Positions 400 through 60,153 of a stretch of 64,000 nucleotides of DNA are shown here, in pieces. Each line of letters begins with the position of its first letter. The first letter of the stretch is position 1. The stretch is from Zygnema cylindricum. Taxonomy: Eukaryota > Streptophyta > Zygnematophyceae > Zygnematales > Zygnemataceae. The stretch lies in contig JBBHKE010001500.1 in assembly GCA_037447655.1 (NCBI GenBank), positions 46,797 through 110,796 on the forward strand. Direction: 5' to 3'. The notes below the pieces were generated by a model. That model was not told the DNA's origin, did not search any database, and saw only the letters and a list, made by a program, of their open reading frames with translations. Both the position numbers and the translations under genes were made by a program.

Positions 400-1093
400 G
401 ATACACTCTCAGAAGCTATCAAGAATCCTACCATACAGCTGTTCTTAAGTGCTTGCCAATTCTTATACAAGCATACAAACCTCACAAAACTCTATCAAAA
501 TATAGAGTAGCATAAACACTGAGAACTCCCAAAGTTTCAACACAATTCACCCGACAACACTCAAGATATAATACTCAGAAATTTCCCAAAAACTGTCTGC
601 AGTTTTACTACTTGGAAGTCAGGATACATAATATGTTATGAGTCCTAAGTCTTATACTTGTGTTGAACTGACAATACTAGTGTACTTGAGTGGTACGTCA
701 AACCACCAAGCTACCACTAATCTGAGCTACCACTGGGCTATCACTAAGCTACCACTGAGCTATAACTAAGCTACCACTGAGTTTACCCATTAAGTTACCA
801 CTGAGTTACCCACTAAATTGACTAGAATCATATCTATCGCAGTTGCTCTATTCTGTAAAGAATCACATTAAGAATATCAGACGCTGCGTTGTCTGTACGG
901 ACCATATCAAATATAATCGTGGTTGCGTTGTCCTCTCTGTGTTGTAGCTTTGCTGCTGCGCTGCTTTGCTGCTGCGCTGCTTTGCTGCTGCGCTGCTGCA
1001 GTGCTCTATCTGTATAGCAGCTGCACTGCTCTGTCTATATAGCAGCTGCGCTGCTGCGCTGCTTTGAGACTGAAAGATTTCCAAAAGACAACA
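341..1093 (-). mobile_element. LTR of copia family A (5' LTR of the truncated left-edge element)
   Basis: The LTR runs from TGTTG at 341 to CAACA at 1093 and is 753 bp, shorter than the 900 and 934 bp copies at 27467 and 32828. On the minus strand its 3' end lies one base from GTTATGGGCC (330-339), a degenerate half-tRNA PBS. The segment 945-1065 is an array of GCTGC/GCAGC motifs, as in the other family A LTRs, and copy number there accounts for some of the length difference. The other end of the element is outside the window, so no target duplication can be checked. Confidence 0.8.
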
Positions 1094-1174
1094 AGGGTGC
1101 GTCTCCATGTACTTGAAACTTAGAGATAACACTTTGTTTTTTAGCGCAGATCCGGCGAACCCGGATTTCGGGTG
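1094..1174 (-). repeat. End of interspersed repeat R (reverse orientation)
   Basis: The first bases after the LTR are the reverse complement of the right end of repeat R (compare 3800-3835, 25340-25365, 27355-27385, all with CACATGGRGACGYACC-like ends). The bases around 1140-1175 (TTTTTAGCGCAGATCCGG...) recur at 33975-34015. This is an interspersed repeat of unknown class; no coding capacity is visible. Confidence 0.5.
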
Positions 1175-1542
1175 TCCTTTGTTGAGATTTGAAATTTTCA
1201 GTTAGTAAATAGAGTAGACTTAGAATAGTTTCTAAAAAGTGGTATATAAGACTTACCTTTATTAGTGTAACAGTAAGCAAAGTACAATAAAGTTTATTGT
1301 ACCTCTACAGGTTTTACGGAGTGACGTTTACATGCGTCACGCAGCAGGCAATTGGAATCGCCAGATCAAACGGACGGAATCTAATCCGGATATCTCGGAA
1401 AATATATGGTACGGCTATTTTTGGAGTCATACAGATATTTTGGAATTATATGGTACAGAATATTTTTATGATCATTAAATAGAAACGTCTGGATATTTCG
1501 GAAGTGACTTATGATCATTGATTTTGAGAGACATCGACGGAC

Positions 1543-1640
1543 GCGATTCACATGGGACCGCAAGTGACGAGGCGAGATTTACGTGGGACCACAAAGTGAC
1601 GAGGCGTGATTCACGTGGGACCACAAGTGACGAAGCACTC
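1543..1640 (+). repeat. Minisatellite, three units of about 33 bp
   Basis: Three imperfect tandem copies share the pattern GATTCACGTGGGACCACAAG followed by TGACGAGGC. They sit just left of the solo LTR insertion at 1651, inside the presumed older LTR. No coding role is seen. Confidence 0.7.
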
Positions 1641-1650
1641 AGGTGCTTCG

Positions 1651-2513
1651 TGTTGTTTTTAAGAAAGCTTTAGTCCTCTCTATGCCTCAGTTGTGAGGGA
1701 GAGAGAGCTGTTCAGGACTTAAGTTATTTTTGGTTGAGTTCGGTTCAGTACTTACCAAAATTAGTGTGACAGTGAAGTTGGGAGTTCACGGTTCATTCAC
1801 ACTTGGGACACGCGTCGTCACTTGAGAGAAATGCGTGAGTATGTCCTTCGTGGACGTACGGGAATTCGGCAGGACCACCGGAATTCGTGAAGTCAATTCT
1901 AGGGTCCCAAATCCTCTAATCGGACGGTTGACAGCCGGCGCCAACAAATACTGACAAGGCGTGACTAGATCACTATCGGCGAGACTAGATCACTATCACT
2001 TTACGTTGTCTGAACTTCGGTGTATATAATTGGTAGAACAGAATTTTGTATGTACTGAATTAGTTGTTTAGTGTTGAGAATGTGGTTTATGACATACCTT
2101 CAGTACACAGGTATACTCACAGTATTTGTTGTGTTAGAATGTTAGATGTACGGCTGGAATGCCTCCGTACAGCTTAGTGTAGTTTCGGTGTATAGAAGTA
2201 GGACTTAGTGAATTTGATTCATTAGGAACAAATGATATGAAAACTGTACACTCAGTTTTATGTAATTTCATTTCTGCATATCTCATAGATCTGTGAGTAG
2301 AATTCACTGAAATTTTGTGTGTTTGTTCCTTTTTATGTTATCTACACTGTGTTTAATTTTCAGGACCATTGGGTTTTTTTTGGAAAGTAATAGTCTGTCA
2401 AAGTTGCTGTTCAGCCATCGGTATTTGTGGAAGCTTCCTCTTTTGATTTGTTATACGATGACTACTGCTGCATCTTCTTCATCTTCAGTGCCGGCAGTTG
2501 TCTCAGAACAACA
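1651..2513 (+). mobile_element. Solo LTR, copia family B
   Basis: An 863-bp LTR with ends TGTTGTTTTT...GAACAACA is flanked by a perfect 5-bp target duplication CTTCG (1646-1650 and 2514-2518). It closely matches the 862-bp 5' LTR at 35252-36113. No internal region is present, so it is a solo LTR produced by LTR-LTR recombination. The last ~55 bp encode an open gag leader (ATG at 2458, MTTAASSSSSVPAVVSEQ), because gag starts inside the LTR in this family. The copy at 36034 carries a stop in this leader; this one does not. Confidence 0.9.
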
Positions 2514-5306: not shown

Positions 5307-6076
5307 TAGTGTTGTGTATTGGTTAAAAATTTATCGCAAGAACACCGATACCGATAGTTGTCGGTTATGGAACGACCAGAGGTCTCGATATATCAGTCAG
5401 AGACCAACAAAATCCATATCGGCGATAACTTTTAAAAAATATAGTATGCATACAATAGTATTATATAACATACTGTATTATATTATTTACTTTATATAGC
5501 GTGGGATGCCATATAATGTATTTGTTGCGTATCTGTTTAATTAAAATCTATTACGCACAACGCAACAAATAAACGTCAACAAATTTAAAACAATAATTTA
5601 AAGTTATAAAATTATAGTATTGAAACGAACAAATTAAATTGCTTTGTAAAATTTTAAGTCAAACTTTTTTCGAAAAACATACGTTCAAATGAACAGATCA
5701 AACGAGCATATCATTCAGACTGTTGCCATTTACTGCAGCCTACTACCACCGTTTTTTGACGATCCAGGGGCACTTATTCGAGGAAATATTAGTTTTTTAT
5801 AAAAGAGTAAAAATATATAGTTATTCATTGCGATTTTTTACCGGAATCAGGGAAAAGGGGGTCCGCGGCGCGGCCGAGGAATAACACGTACAATTGAGTG
5901 TACTGGCCATACATTTATCTATGCGGTCCGTACAGATATCGTTGATAGTTATCGATATCGGTTATTTATAGGCGATAACATCGATAACGATATATCATAC
6001 CAGTATATCGATTATCGGCTACCCGGAAAAAGGCCCATATCAGTTATCGGCAAATCCTTACCAATACACAACACTA
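5307..6076. mobile_element. hAT-like non-autonomous DNA element, 770 bp
   Basis: The element has 17-bp perfect terminal inverted repeats, TAGTGTTGTGTATTGGT at 5307 and its complement ending at 6076. It is flanked by an 8-bp near-perfect target duplication: AAAATTAG at 5299-5306 and CAAATTAG at 6077-6084. An 8-bp duplication and TAGNG termini are typical of the hAT superfamily. The subterminal regions are dense in TATCGATA/CGATAAC motifs. No transposase frame is present, so it would need a helper in trans. Confidence 0.75.
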
Positions 6077-6084
6077 CAAATTAG

Positions 6085-6310
6085 TAGTAGTCTGTATCGC
6101 TAAGGATATGCCGATAACCGATATGGGCCTTTTTTCGGGCATTGGTACGATTTATCGACATCGGTCTTATCGCCGATAAGTAGCCGATAATATCGGGTAC
6201 TAATCGGCAATAATGTCGATAACGATAACTATCGGCGATAACTTTACGGACCGTACAGATAAATGTACGGCCTGTACACTCAACTGTACGTCTTATTCCC
6301 CGGACGTGTA
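6085..6310. mobile_element. Second hAT-like element end, inverted relative to the first
   Basis: Starting directly after the 8-bp duplication of the first element, this segment is the reverse complement of 5860-6076 with substitutions. The TIR has decayed to TAGTAGTCTGTATCGC. Together the two form an inverted repeat with ~215-bp arms and an 8-bp spacer. The far end of this copy is not recognisable. Confidence 0.6.
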
Positions 6311-14652: not shown

Positions 14653-14900
14653 GTATTAAGGTGATGGACCGTCGTCGTGTTATAATGCGTATACTTTTCT
14701 ATCCTTGTTTCGTTTGATATTAAGATGATGGACCATTGTCATGTCAGAATGCATCTGGGTGTTCCTCCTTCTTTGATTTTTTATTTGGGCAATGGATCCA
14801 ATTGTTTTTTCAAACCTCCCACGACTGCTCCTAGCAATGCATGGAATTTTACGACTTAAAGTTCCACTTTTATAGAGCTTGGTTGTGTTAGCGTTAAGAT
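14653..14900. other. Spacer before the tandem array
   Basis: No gene is seen. A short near-repeat occurs: ATTAAGGTGATGGACC at 14663 and ATTAAGATGATGGACC at 14719, each followed by GTC-GT and AATGC. Confidence 0.4.
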
Positions 14901-17900
14901 TTAGTGAAAAAAACATGATGGTGTACAATTTTGAGTACATGTTAAGAAAGATGAAAATAGCAAAATAAAAATGAAAAGGTCCCACAAATAGAAGCTCATG
15001 TTACGTATAGGTTTGGTAGTTTTACTAGGCTATAATGTTTTATGTATTTACTACCACTGTTTTTTTTTTAGGGTTTTATTGTTGTCTTATCCTTTTGTCC
15101 TATAAGTTTCGCCAGTCCTCGGTTTTCTGTAGTTTGATTTCATGTGACATGTCCATTTTCAATTCCTCTACTCACATTATTGGTCGTCTCATTTTTTTAC
15201 TTAAGCTCAAAAGGAAAAACTTTGAATTGTGAAAAGGTATTGTTTAACGTAACCTTTGTGGTTTGTTAAACGATTGGTGTTAAACTGGTATATGTTCCAC
15301 AACTTAATTTATTGGTGGTTACATTGTTTATCGTTTAAATGGGGTAAATACATTAGTATTGTAATGGAAAACTCTAACTGTCAATATAGCTTTACATGAT
15401 TATTAAACTGTTGCTTTGATGGAGAGGGTAAACACAGCGTTTTGTTTCGACACTAAATTACATGTGCGGCACCATTCTTAGTGTTGACATCCCATTATAC
15501 TATCTCATATTGTGATCGCCAACTACATTTGGGAGATCGCATTTGATAAGTTTACCAAACTAGAAATCAACATGGTTTAATTGTTTAGGGCATGTATTAT
15601 TTTATCTTCATGACATCCCTCTGTGTTAACATCTAGTTAGGAGTCATCGATTTGACGACAAATGAGATGTTCTCATGTCATGATTGCTTCAACCTGATTT
15701 TGTCCCTTAGAGTAAATGCTAAAATAAGAGTGTCATATTTGAACTTGCTAAAGGTTTTAGTGAAAAAAACATGATGGTGTACAATTTTGAGTACATGGGA
15801 AGAAATAAGAAAATAGCAAAATAAAAATGAAAAGGTCCCTCAAATAGAAGCTCATGTAACGTATAGGTTTGGTAGTTTTACCAGGCTATAATGTTTTATC
15901 TATTTACTACCACTGTCTTTTTTTTAGGGTTTTATTGTTGTCTTATCCTTTTGTCCTATAAGTTTCGCCAGTCCTCGGTTTTTCTGTTGTTTGATATCAT
16001 GTGACATGTCCATTTTCAATTCCTCTACTCACATTATTGGTCGTCTCATTTTTTTACTTAAGCTCAAAAGGAAAAACTTTGAATTGTGAAAAGGTATTGT
16101 TTAACGTAACCTTTGTGGTTTGTTAAACGATTGGTGTTAAACTGGTACATGTTCCACAACTTAATTTATTGGTGGTTACATTGTTTATCGTTTAAATGGG
16201 GTAAATGCATTAGTATTGTAATGGAAAACTCTAACTGTCAATGTACCTTTACATGATTATTAAACTGTTGCTTTGATGGAGAGGGTAAACACAGCGTTTT
16301 GTTTCGACACTAAATTACATGTGCAGTACCATTCTTAGTGTTGACATCCCATTATACTATCTCATATTGTGATCGCCAACTACATTTGGGAGATCGCATT
16401 TGATAAGTTTACCAAACTAGAAATCAACATGGTTTAATTATTTAAGGCATGTATTATTTTATCTTCATGACATCCCTCTCAATTAACATCCAGTTAGGAG
16501 TCATCGATTTGACGACAAATGAGATGTTCTCATGTCATGACTGCTTCAACCTGATTTTGTCCCTTAGAGTAAATGCTGAAATAAGAGTGTCATATTTGAA
16601 CTTGCTGAAGGTTTTAGTGAAAAAAAACATGATGGTGTACAATTTTGAGTACATGGGAAGAAATAAGAAAATAGCAAAATAAAAATGAAAAGGTCCCTCA
16701 AATATAAGCTCATGTAACGTATAGGTTTGGTAGTTTTACCAGCCTATAATGTTTTATCTATTTACTACCACTGTCTTTTTTTTAGGGTTTTATTGTTGTC
16801 TTATCCTTTTGTCCTATAAGTTTCGCCAGTCCTCGGTTTTTCTGTTGTTTGATATCATGTGACATGTCCATTTTCAATTCCTCTACTCACATTATTGGTC
16901 GTCTCATTTTTTTACTTAAGCTCAAAAGGAAAAACTTTGAATTGTGAAAAGGTATTGTTTAACGTAACCTTTGTGGTTTGTTAAACGATTGGTGTTAAAC
17001 TGGTACATGTTCCACAACTTAATTTATTGGTGGTTACATTGTTTATCGTTTAAATGGGGTAAATGCATTAGTATTGTAATGGAAAACTCTAACTGTCAAT
17101 GTACCTTTACATGATTATTAAACTGTTGCTTTGATGGAGAGGGTAAACACAGCGTTTTGTTTCGACACTAAATTACATGTGCGGTACCATTGTTAGTGTT
17201 GACATCCCATTATACTATCTCATATTGTGATTGCCAACTACATTTGGGAGATCGCATTTGATAAGTTTACCAAATTAGAAATCAACATGGTTTAATTATT
17301 TAAGGCATGTATTATTTTTTCTTCATGACATCCCTCTCAATTAACATCCAGTTAGGAGTCATCGATTTGACGACAAATGAGATGTTCTCATGTCATGACT
17401 GCTTCAACCTGATTTTGTCCCTTAGAGTAAATGCTGAAATAAGAGTGTCATATTTGAACTTGCTGAAGGTTTTAGTGAAAAAAACATGATGGTGTACAAT
17501 TTTGAGTACATGGGAAGAAATAAGAAAATAGCAAAATAAAAATGAAAAGGTCCCTCAAATATAAGCTCATGTAACGTATAGGTTTGGTAGTTTTACCAGC
17601 CTATAATGTTTTATCTATTTACTACCACTGTCTTTTTTTTAGGGTTTTATTGTTGTCTTATCCTTTTGTCCTATAAGTTTCGCCAGTCCTCGGTTTTCTG
17701 TAGTTTGATTTCATGTGACATGTCCATTTTCAATTCCTCTACTCACATTATTGGTCGTCTCATTTTTTTACTTAAGCTCAAAAGGAAAAAACTTTGAATT
17801 GTGAAAAGGTATTGTTTAACGTAACCTTTGTGGTTTGTTAAACGATTGGTGTTAAACTGGTACATGTTCCACAACTTAATTTATTGGTGGTTACATTGTT

Positions 17901-18302
17901 TATCTTTCAAATGGGGTAAATGCATTAGTATTGTAATGGAAAACTATAACTGTCAATGTAGCTTTACATGATTGTTAAACTGTTGCTTTGATGGAGAGGG
18001 TAAACAAAGCGTTTTGTTTCGACACTAAATAACATGTGCGGTACCATTCTTAGTGTTGACATCCCCTTATACTAACTCATATTGTGATCGCCAACTACAT
18101 TTGGGAAATCGCATTTGATAAGTTTACCAAACTAGAAATCAACATGGTTTAATTGTTTGACATCCCTCTTTGTTAACATCCAGTTAGGAGTCATTGATTT
18201 GACGACAAATAAGATGTTCTCATGTCATGACTGCTTCAACCTGATTTTGTCCCTTAGAGAAAATGCTAAAATAAGAGTGTCATATTTGAACTTGCTGAAG
18301 GT
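14901..18302 (+). repeat. Tandem array, four units of about 857 bp
   Basis: The anchor TTAGTGAAAAAAACATGATGG recurs at 14901, 15757, 16614 and 17472 (spacings 856, 857, 858). The fourth unit loses ~27 bp near 18155 and ends at about 18302. Units look nearly identical by eye, with scattered single-base changes. Each unit has the same two small open frames of ~60 codons, but they are hydrophobic, unlike any family I know, and their lengths change between units through single-base indels. I treat it as a satellite-like array, not as genes. Confidence 0.9.
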
Positions 18303-18840
18303 TTGTTCATGTGATTCTCACCCATTCGGTCTTCATCCCACCTCTCCCATCAGCCCCCCCCCTTTTTATGACGTCAATTTCTTTACCTTCTCCCCACCTC
18401 CCCTCTTCATTTTCCCATTCCATCGCTCCCCTCTTACAAGCACTCGACACGTCAACCCTTTTTTTCCTCCTTTTCACCCCCTCCCCCTCAATTGTCTTTC
18501 GACATCAAATTCTTTACCCTCCCCCCTTCCTTCCCATTGGCCATTCACCCCCACATTCCCTCAGTGGACACCATTGTTTCAATCTTTTACCCTTTCCCAC
18601 GCCCCATTTTTGGTCCCTTCTTCCATATCTTTACTTTCGCTCCTTTGCATCCTTCCTCCCGCCCTTCTCATGGTTTCGTCCCACTACCATTTTCACCATC
18701 TATATCCTATGGTTTCTTTCCATTTTTCCATTTTCCCCTTCCTCTCCCACTCATAATTCTCATGCATCTCCCTCTCATTCAATAAATATGTTCGTCTAAG
18801 CATCCTCGCCCCCTCTCTCTCTCCCCTCCTCCCTCTAAAC
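18303..18840 (+). repeat. Pyrimidine-rich tract
   Basis: More than 500 bp of strongly C+T-biased plus strand (CCCCTCCCC, CTCTCTCTCTCCCC and similar). It abuts the last tandem unit and runs into the duplicated segment at 18809. Three overlapping plus-strand frames of 97-199 codons are Pro/Ser/Phe/His-rich consequences of base composition and are not called as genes. Confidence 0.7.
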
Positions 18841-24429: not shown

Positions 24430-25370
24430 AGTGATTAGCAGCCTCCAAAGCATTGGACTGTAGTGAAGATTATCCGTACTACTTTGAAGAGCGTCCCTAT
24501 GTGCGAAAATGAAATCGGAACTTTAAAATGTGACGATTGTAGACGTAGGTACAACTTGTGACGATTGAAGCCGACTACGAAACCTCCGACGATTAGTGAC
24601 GTCAACAAAAACATCGACAGTGGTAGACGTCTAGATTTTTGTGAAATTGTCGATGTTTAGGGTTCGGTGACATTGTGAATTCACGCTCACTTGTGACAAC
24701 GTCGACGTCACTGATTCAAGAACTTTCCGCCATGGTTTCCCGATTTCGTTTTTTCTACTTTTTTCACTCGATTTGCCATTAAAAAAAAACCTAAAAAATT
24801 TCAAAATAATATTTTTAAAAGATCTTTCATTTTATACCAATATTGTCGTGTCTCATTCTAAAAAGTGTGAGATAAAAGCGATGGTGTGAAAGGGAGAGGG
24901 GAGAGGCAACGACGGCGCAAAATTTTGCAAAGGACCCCATGAATGAAAGTGGAGGTCCGAGACCCCTGCAAATTTTTTTCAGTACATGCGCGTGACGGGC
25001 ACGGAGAAAAATAGCGGGGACTATCCCTCGTCCTAAAATTTTCCCACTTGTGGCGCGTGCGAGTCATTTTTCATTCGCTATTTGGGCGGTACTTGAACTA
25101 AAATCACCCCCTCGAGGTGATTTTGGATGAAGTTTTTTTTGGGCTGGATTCGCTTGCCCGGCCGGGGTCTGAAAAGGGGAAAACGCCAAAATGCGTTCAC
25201 ATGACAACAAACACGCCGTACATCCAAAGTATGAATGGGCGTTTACTCTACTTTGGTAAAAATGATTTTCTCGTACGGCTAAAGTTTTTGTCAAAAATCC
25301 CTGAATTTTAGGGCAAAAAGACAGAGAAAAGTAGATACTTTAATACATGGGGACGTACCCTAAGAACTTT
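24430..25370 (+). repeat. Interspersed repeat R, copy 1
   Basis: It is similar along its length to 26210-27390 once the 229-bp LTR there is removed. Landmarks are GAAGAGCGTCCC-ATGTGCGAAAATGAAATCGG at the left and CTAAAGTTTTT...ACATGGGGACGTACCC at the right. No protein domain is recognisable. It serves as an empty-site reference for the solo LTR in copy 2. Confidence 0.7.
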
Positions 25371-26209: not shown

Positions 26210-26878
26210 AAGTATTTTGGATTGTAGTAAGATTCTCCATACTACATTGAAGAGCGTCCCAATGTGCGAAAATGAAATCGGAACTTTGACATGTGCGGGT
26301 TGTAGACGTAAGTACAATTTTGTGACGGATGAAGACGACTACGAAACTTTCGACAATCAGTGACGCCAACAAAAACAGCGACAATTGTCGACGTTTAGAT
26401 TTTTGTAATTTTGTGACATTATAGAAGTTTAGGGTTTTGTGACATTGTGACGCCATGCTCACTTGTGACAACGTCGACGTCACAAATTCAAGAACTTTCC
26501 GCCATGGCTATCCCATTTCGTTTCTTTGACTTTTCTCACTCGACTTGGCATAAAAATATACATAAAGGAAGTCAAAAGAATTATTTTTCAAATATCTTTC
26601 ATTTCATACCAACATTGTCGTGCCTCATTCTAAAAAAGTGAAAGATAAAAGCGATAGTGTAAGAGGGAGAGGGAAGAGGCGACAAAACACAAAATTTTGC
26701 AAAGGACCCATAAATGAAAGTGGAGATCAAAGTCCCTTGCAAATTTTTTTCCGTACATGCTCGTCTTTTTCGTATTTGCACGTGACGCGTAGGGAGAAGA
26801 ATAGTGAGTGCTCTCCTTCGTCCTAAAATTTTCCCACTCGTGTGGCGCATGCGTGGACCGTTTTTCATTTGTTGTTTC

Positions 26879-27107
26879 TGTTGGATTGGCACGTGAAGCC
26901 GGTCCAATACGGGGTAGAATATGGAAATATCCATACTCCAGCCGCCCGTAATAAATGGGTACAGACCCGCCAGTCTCAACATCGAGCTGGTGGCACAGTG
27001 GTAGTGCGTTCGCAGCTGAAGTGAAAGGTCCCAGGTTCGAACCCTGGCCAGCTCAATTTTCCCAAGTGTGGGACATGCCGAATCCCGGATTTCTAGGAAA
27101 TCTAACT
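26879..27107 (+). mobile_element. Solo LTR of the tRNA-carrying TRIM family
   Basis: A 229-bp element of exactly the same length and organisation as the two LTRs at 34030 and 34316. It starts TGTTGGATTGGCACGTGAA and is flanked by GTTTC on both sides (26874-26878 and 27108-27112). The 3' end reads TAACT instead of CAACA. R copy 1 shows the corresponding empty site near 25080. It is well diverged from the 34-kb copies, so it is an older insertion. Confidence 0.9.
26984..27054 (+). tRNA. tRNA-like sequence inside the TRIM solo LTR
   Basis: A full cloverleaf can be drawn. The acceptor stem GAGCTGG/CCAGCTC has 7 of 7 pairs, the D stem is GCAC/GTGC and the anticodon stem TTCGC/GTGAA has one G-U. 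The T stem CCAGG/CCTGG encloses the loop TTCGAAC; the variable loop is 5 nt and the discriminator is A. The A box TGGCACAGTGG matches the Pol III consensus; the B box is GGTTCGAACCC. TTTT at 27057-27060 is a possible Pol III terminator. The anticodon loop AGCTGAA has G instead of U33, so a translating tRNA is unlikely. No CCA is encoded. Confidence 0.75.
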
Positions 27108-27390
27108 GTTTCGGTGGTACTTTCCCTTAAATGGAGTCCCGAGGCGATCCTGATGATGTTTTTTGACGGGCTGGATTGTCTTGCTCGGGGGTCAAAAAAA
27201 TGAAAATGCCAAAATACCTTCACATGACGACATACATGAAGTACATTCAAAGTATCGACTTAACGTTTGTTGTACTTTTAAAGAATTGGTTTTTTGTACG
27301 GCTAAAGTTTTTCTCGTAAGCAATTGCGTTTTTGGTAAAAATGACAAAAAAAAATTGATACTTTAACACATGGGGACATACCCTTACTGT

Positions 27391-34024: not shown

Positions 34025-34029
34025 ACTAG

Positions 34030-34258
34030 TGTTGGATTGGCACGTGAATGCCGGTTCAATACGGGGTAGAATGTGATACATCACACTCGAAGCCGCCTAA
34101 AATAAATAGGTACGGACCCGCCAGGCTCTACATCGAGCTGGTGGCACAGTGGTTAGTGCGCTGACAGCTCAAGTCAGAGGTCTCAGGTTCGAGCCCTGGC
34201 CGGCTCACTTTTCCCTAGTATGGGACATACCAAATCACGGATTTCACGGAAATCAACA
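34030..34258 (+). mobile_element. TRIM 5' LTR
   Basis: 229 bp. An AT-rich AAAATAAATA lies ~30 bp upstream of the tRNA-like module and could be a Pol II TATA box. The module is followed by TTTT and ~45 bp to the CAACA end. Confidence 0.93.
34135..34206 (+). tRNA. tRNA-like sequence in TRIM 5' LTR
   Basis: Acceptor stem GAGCTGG/CCGGCTC has six Watson-Crick pairs and one G-U. The D stem is GCAC/GTGC with an 8-nt loop. The anticodon stem CTGAC/GTCAG has 5 of 5 pairs, with loop AGCTCAA. The variable loop is 5 nt and the T stem TCAGG/CCTGG encloses TTCGAGC. Discriminator is A, and TTTT follows at 34209-34212. A box TGGCACAGTGG and B box GGTTCGAGCCC suggest internal Pol III promotion. Position 33 is G, so I regard it as tRNA-like and not as a decoding tRNA. 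Confidence 0.75.
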
Positions 34259-34270
34259 TGGTATCGGAGC
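34259..34270 (+). promoter_or_regulatory. TRIM primer-binding site
   Basis: TGGTATCGGAGC directly after the LTR. It matches the canonical plant initiator tRNA-Met site TGGTATCAGAGC with one change. The identical variant is used by element K at 60141-60153. Confidence 0.85.
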
Positions 34271-34304
34271 CAGCGGGATTGCGGATGGTGTGACCGGCCT
34301 TCCC

Positions 34305-34315
34305 GTGAGGGGGGG
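34305..34315 (+). promoter_or_regulatory. TRIM polypurine tract
   Basis: GTGAGGGGGGG immediately before the 3' LTR, the expected site of plus-strand priming. Confidence 0.75.
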
Positions 34316-34544
34316 TGTTGGATTGGCACGTGAATGCGGGTTCAATACGGGGTAGAATGTGATACATCACACTCGAAGCCGCCTAAAATAAATAGGTACG
34401 GACCCGCCAGGCTCTACATCGAGCTGGTGGCACAGTGGTTAGTGCGCTGACAGCTCAAGTCAGAGGTCTCAGGTTCGAGCCCTGGCCGGCTCACTTTTCC
34501 CTAGTATGGGACATACCAAATCCCGGATTTCACGGAAATCAACA
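34316..34544 (+). mobile_element. TRIM 3' LTR
   Basis: 229 bp, same layout as the 5' LTR with two substitutions outside the tRNA-like part. Confidence 0.93.
34421..34492 (+). tRNA. tRNA-like sequence in TRIM 3' LTR
   Basis: Identical to the copy in the 5' LTR (34135-34206), including A box, B box and the TTTT that follows. Confidence 0.75.
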
Positions 34545-34549
34545 ACTAG

Positions 34550-60140: not shown

Positions 60141-60153
60141 TGCTCCGATACCA
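60141..60153 (-). promoter_or_regulatory. Primer-binding site of copia K
   Basis: Minus-strand TGGTATCGGAGCA, two bases from the presumed LTR end TATCA. It is a conventional 3'-end initiator tRNA-Met site with the same A-to-G variant as in the TRIM. Confidence 0.8.

Follow-up and report, generated by a model that had tools for sequence, protein, structure and literature searches.

Helenus-type TRIMs with a tRNA-like module in each LTR, and elements that join LTRs of different families, in one apparently plant-like genome

TRIMs with tRNA-derived sequence in their LTRs have been described as Helenus, with TRIMp3 as the proposed class name (Kojima 2024, PMC10886601), a description also cited in an excerpted meeting report (PMC12859917). 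According to the sections of PMC10886601 available, the hosts are fungi, animals and one plant, Selaginella moellendorffii, the origin proposed for the elements is the insertion of a SINE into an LTR, and their transcription by Pol III is unproven. A sequence-only reading of the DNA analysed here knew of no named TRIM family of this kind, but Helenus is one (PMC10886601, same sections); its second proposal, that a Pol III promoter was captured more than once in TRIMs, had already been made with Helenus in the same text. The analogy it drew with Cassandra was right; the LTR of that element contains a Pol III-type internal promoter. For the Cassandra arrays, recombination or template switching has already been proposed in the accessible part of Kalendar 2020 (PMC7215508).

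The element analysed here lies in a stretch of 64,000 nucleotides (the window) belonging to a genome assembly of 352.8 Mb in 2689 contigs. By the defining features tested in its sequence, it is a Helenus-type (TRIMp3) element: 515 bp long (below 1000 bp), it has two LTRs, a PBS, a polypurine tract (PPT), a tRNA-like sequence with conserved boxes A and B in each LTR and a 5-bp target-site duplication (TSD), and encodes no proteins. Direct reading places it at 34030-34544 of the forward strand, with a 229-bp 5' LTR (34030..34258, assigned to family A by LTR comparison), a 57-bp interior (34259..34315) and a 229-bp 3' LTR (34316..34544), between two copies of the duplication ACTAG (34025..34029 and 34545..34549), which confirms the geometry first given for it. 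The interior starts with TGGTATCGGAGCC, in the PBS, and ends with the G-rich PPT GTGAGGGGGGG (34305..34315, +). The PBS TGGTATCGGAGC (34259..34270, +) fits the host initiator-tRNA start ATCGGAG, as judged from pattern matches only. The two LTRs differ at 2 positions (~99% identity), and no stop-to-stop frame of at least 110 codons overlaps the element. Within the window, the interior has no second match except the 12-mer PBS at 60153 (-), and a comparison with window positions 1060-1720 gave no clear empty site. The 99% identical LTRs, the TSD and the many genome copies rule out a chance repeat as the origin of the element. The second TGGTATCGGAGC-type PBS of the window, at 60142-60153 (-), adjoins Copia-like coding remnants and marks a candidate autonomous-partner class.

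Each LTR contains a tRNA-like module, at 34135..34207 (73 bases) in the 5' LTR and at 34421..34493 in the 3' LTR, both on the forward strand. ARAGORN calls one tRNA per LTR (34135-34208 and 34421-34494), and the Rfam tRNA model RF00005 scores 51.3 bits in each (E 4.3e-8, gathering score 29). Box A (TGGCACAGTGG), box B (GGTTCGAGCCC) and TTTT are all there; in the 5' LTR they lie at 34142-34152, 34186-34196 and 34209..34212 (all +), the last, directly 3' of the module, being a candidate Pol III terminator. This agrees with the earlier claim that each LTR of the element contains a tRNA-like cassette complete with both boxes and TTTT. A TATA-like motif, AATAAAT (34101..34107, +), is found 34 bp upstream of the module, and is spelled AAGAAAT in 26 of 57 family-A LTRs. 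Position 33 of the anticodon loop is G instead of U, which indicates that the module is tRNA-like but probably not a decoding tRNA. Comparison by eye of the module 3' end with the PBS gave no match that would point to self-priming. ARAGORN calls such modules tRNA genes (mostly Glu, Gln, Ala) and Rfam calls them tRNA, so that tRNA gene counts would be inflated.

The window also contains a solo LTR of subfamily B (26879..27107, +; 229 bp), 84.6% identical to the family-A LTR and flanked by the TSD GTTTC at 26874..26878 and 27108..27112. Its module (26984..27055, +) scores 55.7 bits with Rfam and is also called by ARAGORN. A paralogous repeat without the solo LTR, at 24453..25361 (+), represents the empty site; in this diverged repeat pair the filled counterpart is 26217-26877 plus 27106-27384. 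The GTTTC duplication and the empty site show that the solo LTR is an insertion of its own and not a local duplication of the TRIM. At the gathering score, the Rfam scan of the window gave three tRNA matches, all in LTRs, and nothing else. Elsewhere, much of the window from ~7900 to 64000 is a dense nest of decayed Copia elements, with blocks repeated at ~64-92% identity. An ~857-bp tandem repeat occupies 14900-18304 in about four copies that are 93-97% identical, and 436 bases at 5871-6306, possibly a foldback element, match their own reverse complement at ~73%.

The many genome copies with LTRs and TSDs answer the question whether the element is a chance insertion copied once: it belongs to a family. 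With the window TRIM LTR as query, at least 63 genome matches were obtained (best 40 of 916 candidates scored), and with the solo LTR at least 82 (best 40 of 973). The 40 loci listed for the first query contain one LTR match in 19 cases, two in 19 and three in 2. The sample of A and B elements comprises 67 loci and 117 LTR pieces, of which 113 are near-complete LTRs; altogether 109 loci, picked by similarity and not at random, were inspected. A stretch of 202 kb chosen by contig number, too small for an estimate of density, contained one copy (L007, decayed) and none of types C or D. L007 does not represent a separate young family, since as a query it gives itself and copies at ~76-82% only (at least 51 matches, best 40 of 552 candidates scored). 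Of 66 A/B loci, 35 are bounded at the expected positions by an exact 5-bp TSD, compared with a mean of 0.66 and a maximum of 5 in 2000 shuffles of the flanks; the split is 26 of 38 for multi-LTR loci and 9 of 28 for single-LTR loci, several of the latter being truncated elements and not clean solo LTRs. Six of the 29 two-LTR elements compared (altered LTRs and arrays omitted) have identical LTR pairs, and their activity is consequently recent. A pattern scan of IMG/VR gave 0 matches, and two exact 19-mer matches in MAG contigs were dismissed as chance, as ~2 are expected in 257 Gb and they barely extend past the 19-mer.

Four LTR types with the module were distinguished, A, B, C and D, with LTRs of 223-247 bp and interiors of 57-65 bp. 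Family C was reached via the hybrid module of L051, a B element in which the 5' LTR only has a different 5' half of the module. It has an LTR of ~247 bp, an interior of ~60 bp and a module mostly called tRNA-Ala, and the clear similarity of its LTR to those of A or B is confined to the module. Family D, found adjoining C LTRs, has a 223-bp LTR, a 65-bp interior and a module 94% identical to the B module of the window. Families A, B and D have the module in common and also, as judged by eye, short segments next to it and at the end of the LTR; the C module differs. In the copies checked of all four types, a TATA-like motif lies 32-34 bases and ACAT 5-6 bases upstream of the module. A TTTT stands directly behind the module in families A, B and C, but the D copy checked (L115) has no T4 on the forward strand, and hence the terminator is not a feature of every family.

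Pattern matches in the host genome gave four initiator-tRNA starts of the ATCGGAG type and two of the ATCAGAG type (none in the reversed control), and these fit the two commonest PBS spellings. The spelling varies within families: TGGTATCAGAGC is that of family C, with GGGTATCAGAGC in L094, TGGTATCAAAGC occurs in L047 and L098, and TGGTATCAGAGCC in the A interior of L071. Two features of Copia-mobilised TRIMs, a 5-bp TSD and a PBS for the 3' end of the initiator tRNA (iMet), are present, the tRNA being recognised by its 5'-start pattern only. A search with Copia pol gave a best match of 55% over 47% of the query, one with Copia gag gave no matches, and of four candidate host proteins a single one, a Gypsy-type RT, had Pfam matches. 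The profile PF00504 has 88 matches in the genome (the control also gave matches in one genome out of 14, that of a cyanobacterium), and chlorophyll a/b-binding matches are clustered on contigs G000:C519 and C2590, with weaker clusters on C610 and C1077. Together with the initiator-tRNA starts, the PF00504 matches suggest a photosynthetic, plant-like host.

The module is well preserved. ARAGORN still scores a tRNA in 107 of the 113 near-complete A/B LTRs, which speaks against the refuting case named in the sequence-only reading, that most copies lack the module or have decayed stems; TTTT is kept in 108, the exact A box TGGCACAGTGG in 100 and GGTTCGA of box B in at least 100 (among the 12 commonest forms listed), and no more than one of the 21 pairs is broken in 106. 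The copies were recruited by LTR similarity, and the sample therefore leans towards intact modules. A location of the module mainly outside LTRs had been considered as well: with the C-type hybrid module of L051 as the one query (best 40 of 590 candidates scored) all 18 loci fetched have it within LTRs, and further modules may lie outside LTRs. The genome scan with RF00005, in which the best 63 of 24,620 candidates were scored, cannot for that reason serve to count modules outside LTRs. Net divergence between 54 A and 55 B LTRs (4 altered ones omitted) is ~0 in box A and the acceptor stem, 0.09 in box B, 0.14 after the module, 0.17 in U3 and 0.33 in the anticodon arm; the value for box B results from one change, at a position left free in the box B consensus.

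The A and B modules of the window differ at 9 positions, 7 of them in stems and with two pairs changed on both sides, and yet both have 21 of 21 positions paired (P ~0.017 under random substitution, 0.002 given 7 stem changes). In pairwise comparisons, which are non-independent, a changed pair within a subfamily is broken in 58% (A) and 30% (B) of cases and doubly compensated in 0.00, against 17% broken and 47% doubly compensated between subfamilies. When each distinct variant is counted once, 24 of 44 within-subfamily pair variants break the pair, versus 3 fixed differences that all keep it, which is not significant (Fisher P 0.11). Selection on the pairing of the module thus appears moderately supported, mainly by the comparison of the A and B modules of the window. 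Fully paired modules account for 24 of 30 in D versus 0 of 25 in C, where one pair is broken in 14 and two in 7, A-A being commonest at one anticodon-stem pair. An alignment of five modules (A, B, D, an old A copy and C) has 10 pairs changed on both sides, compared with 3.9 after shuffling; as C is a different tRNA type, part of this covariation is tRNA ancestry. Modules B and D are predicted by MFE to fold as a cloverleaf; for module A an alternative fold (-31.7 kcal/mol) is better than the cloverleaf (-26.9). In L043, one LTR is devoid of the anticodon arm of the module, and in L044 and L070 the module of one LTR has an internal duplication; the partner LTR has the usual layout in all three.

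We consider it fairly probable, from these sequence features, that the elements are Helenus-type TRIMs that captured a tRNA-like Pol III promoter, propagate by the cycle outlined here and exchange parts between families. TFIIIC would bind boxes A and B of the 5' LTR and Pol III would initiate close to the module's first base, possibly with help from the TATA-like motif at -32 to -34 and ACAT at -5/-6. The polymerase would pass the short TTTT often enough to reach the 3' LTR; running from module to module, it would make R roughly equal to the module. The host initiator tRNA would then prime at the PBS present in the elements, the RNA would be copied by a Copia machinery, and the cDNA would be integrated, an event of which the 5-bp duplications are the visible result. 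Families that share a host and, presumably, particles could transfer cDNA ends to one another at the iMet-type PBS and in the tRNA module, and such transfer would give rise to heterotypic elements and mixed arrays.

Transcription of the LTR by Pol III is plausible from its sequence, and the Pol III cycle is favoured by the kept boxes, by the precedent of Cassandra and by the TATA-like motif, which is changed in young A copies: AAGAAAT occurs in A elements whose LTRs differ at 0-3 positions and retain boxes A and B, and this favours the internal promoter. The main rival reading, that Pol II makes the genomic RNA from the TATA-like box while the module yields at most a short dead-end Pol III RNA and persists for its RNA structure (at the start of R, in packaging or in protection of the RNA end), is in our view unlikely. 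It accounts for the TATA-like motif at -32 to -34, shared by the copies checked from each of the four types, a regularity that weighs against the Pol III cycle, and for stems that changed in pairs between A and B. Two further points are in its favour and count against the Pol III cycle: in A, B and C a TTTT stands right behind the module even in the 5' LTR, where efficient termination would stop Pol III and yield a dead-end RNA of ~80 nt, and the D copy checked has no T4. The altered motif of the young A elements and a box A without net A-B change, beside a U3 divergence of 0.17, argue against it. The Pol III cycle is further weakened by the better alternative fold of module A, by the C modules, 0 of 25 of which keep 21 pairs, by the net A-B divergence of 0.09 in box B, by the non-significant stricter test of pair-keeping changes and by the PBS spelling that varies within families. 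A purely passive role, in which the module would be a SINE or tRNA fragment anciently inserted into a single LTR and carried along since, seems very unlikely: box A and the acceptor stem are free of net A-B divergence, the changed stem pairs of A and B all still pair, and family C, with an otherwise dissimilar LTR, has a tRNA-like module of another type at the corresponding position, even if 24 of 44 distinct within-subfamily variants break a pair (Fisher P 0.11 against the 3 fixed) and parts of the module were lost or duplicated in LTRs of L043, L044 and L070. A single SINE landing as the whole story is rejected, because box A and the acceptor stem show no net A-B divergence and C has another module.

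Segment mapping of the 109 loci identified four that join LTRs of different families. L129 and L099 both consist of a C LTR, a D interior and a D LTR, with TSDs, read by eye, of AATTG/AATTG (exact) and AGATT/AGATG (4 of 5), respectively. L071 is composed of a partial A LTR, D interior, D LTR, A interior, A LTR, C interior and C LTR (ATATT/ATATT), and L098 of a hybrid C/D LTR, D interior, D LTR, C interior and C LTR (GGGAG/GGGAG, weak in its GA-rich flank); the TSDs of these two, also read by eye, are exact if the last LTR is taken to end CAATA. L098 (contig C327) has a partner, L097 (G000:C1450), with the same mixed array and 5' flank, a different 3' flank and no TSD; the pair may reflect duplication, recombination or an assembly effect. 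A scripted test that required a CA end found no exact TSD at the four heterotypic loci, with one mismatch for L071 and L099, two for L097 and no result for L098 and L129. When L098 and L097 are counted once, there are seven changes of family, five of which lie where an LTR end meets the PBS and interior of the next family; the sixth falls inside the module (the hybrid LTR), and at the seventh a broken A module runs into a D interior. The C-D order with its joint at the PBS is what would be expected from intermolecular transfer of plus-strand strong-stop DNA. By eye, the switch points of L098 and L051 fall between the 3' side of the anticodon arm and the T arm, ~10 bases apart. L051 has the exact TSD TGTTA, and its hybrid LTR may predate or postdate the insertion. 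Six further D loci are D only, and L079 has an odd interior with a D-like 3' part. Arrays of 3-5 LTRs were observed at L035, L047, L048, L049, L079 and L092, all of a single family except for the D-like piece in L079, and an exact 5-bp TSD surrounds the whole array in four of the six (L048, L049, L079 and L092).

The TSDs make integration as units the simplest reading for most of the heterotypic loci. About even credence is due to a broader one, in which the tRNA-bearing TRIMs form one recombining pool: since the families share the iMet-type PBS and the tRNA module, cDNA ends would jump between them, modules and whole LTRs would be exchanged, and mixed elements such as the C-D loci and the A-D-A-C array would integrate as single units. 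It is rather unlikely that unequal crossing-over or gene conversion after integration, or assembly errors, account for the mixed arrays and hybrid LTRs. Arrays of 3-5 LTRs, mostly of a single family, do occur in this genome, tandemly arrayed TRIMs are described as common in plants in the available text of Gao 2016 (PMC4717578), L097 shares array and 5' flank with L098 yet differs in the 3' flank and has no TSD, and the exact TSDs of the heterotypic loci were read by eye where the scripted CA-end test found none, all of which would suit such an origin. However, L129 has AATTG on both sides, as L071 has ATATT and L098, weakly, GGGAG if the last LTR ends CAATA, and conversion would need to place a foreign terminal LTR exactly against an intact TSD. 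With the PBS joints, exchange between families has a candidate route in reverse transcription, and elements with LTRs of two families would record strand transfer between co-packaged templates. The many near-identical copies could be used to test whether a tRNA module drives the transcription of an LTR retrotransposon.

tRNA-headed SINEs have a tRNA-like Pol III head, as the TRIM module does; the elements described here differ from them in having LTRs, a PBS, a PPT and fixed 5-bp TSDs, and no SINE tail was seen. As far as limited searches reach, the new part is the set of families in one plant-like genome together with the heterotypic elements, the kind itself being already named; a limited literature search found no report of mixed-family Helenus arrays, a weak absence. 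If the host is other than Selaginella moellendorffii, plant Helenus extends beyond a single described family, and several recently active plant Helenus families are present in one genome. In common with Helenus, as presented in the available sections of PMC10886601, the elements have no coding capacity, several families per genome, solo LTRs, the 5-bp TSD of its plant and fungal members and tandem arrays, there for LTR-11_DR. They differ from Helenus-1_SMo of Selaginella moellendorffii, which has a 120-bp LTR and an 85-bp interior, in their dimensions (223-247 bp and 57-65 bp), and the same sections do not mention heterotypic elements or module exchange (Kojima 2024, PMC10886601). The arrays resemble the tandemly arrayed TRIMs of Gao 2016 (PMC4717578), such as L3I2 and L5I4, which also have TSDs; the main text of that paper, as available, does not contain the word tRNA and describes no mixed-family arrays. 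In Cassandra, the LTR sequence is derived from 5S rRNA and not from tRNA, and the arrays in the accessible part of PMC7215508 are of Cassandra only; the Rfam scan of our window at the gathering score, with its three tRNA matches, gave no 5S rRNA-derived sequence in an LTR. With Cassandra, as portrayed there, the families share the Pol III-type internal promoter in the LTR, the PBS TGGTATCAGAGC and the tandem arrays (PMC7215508).
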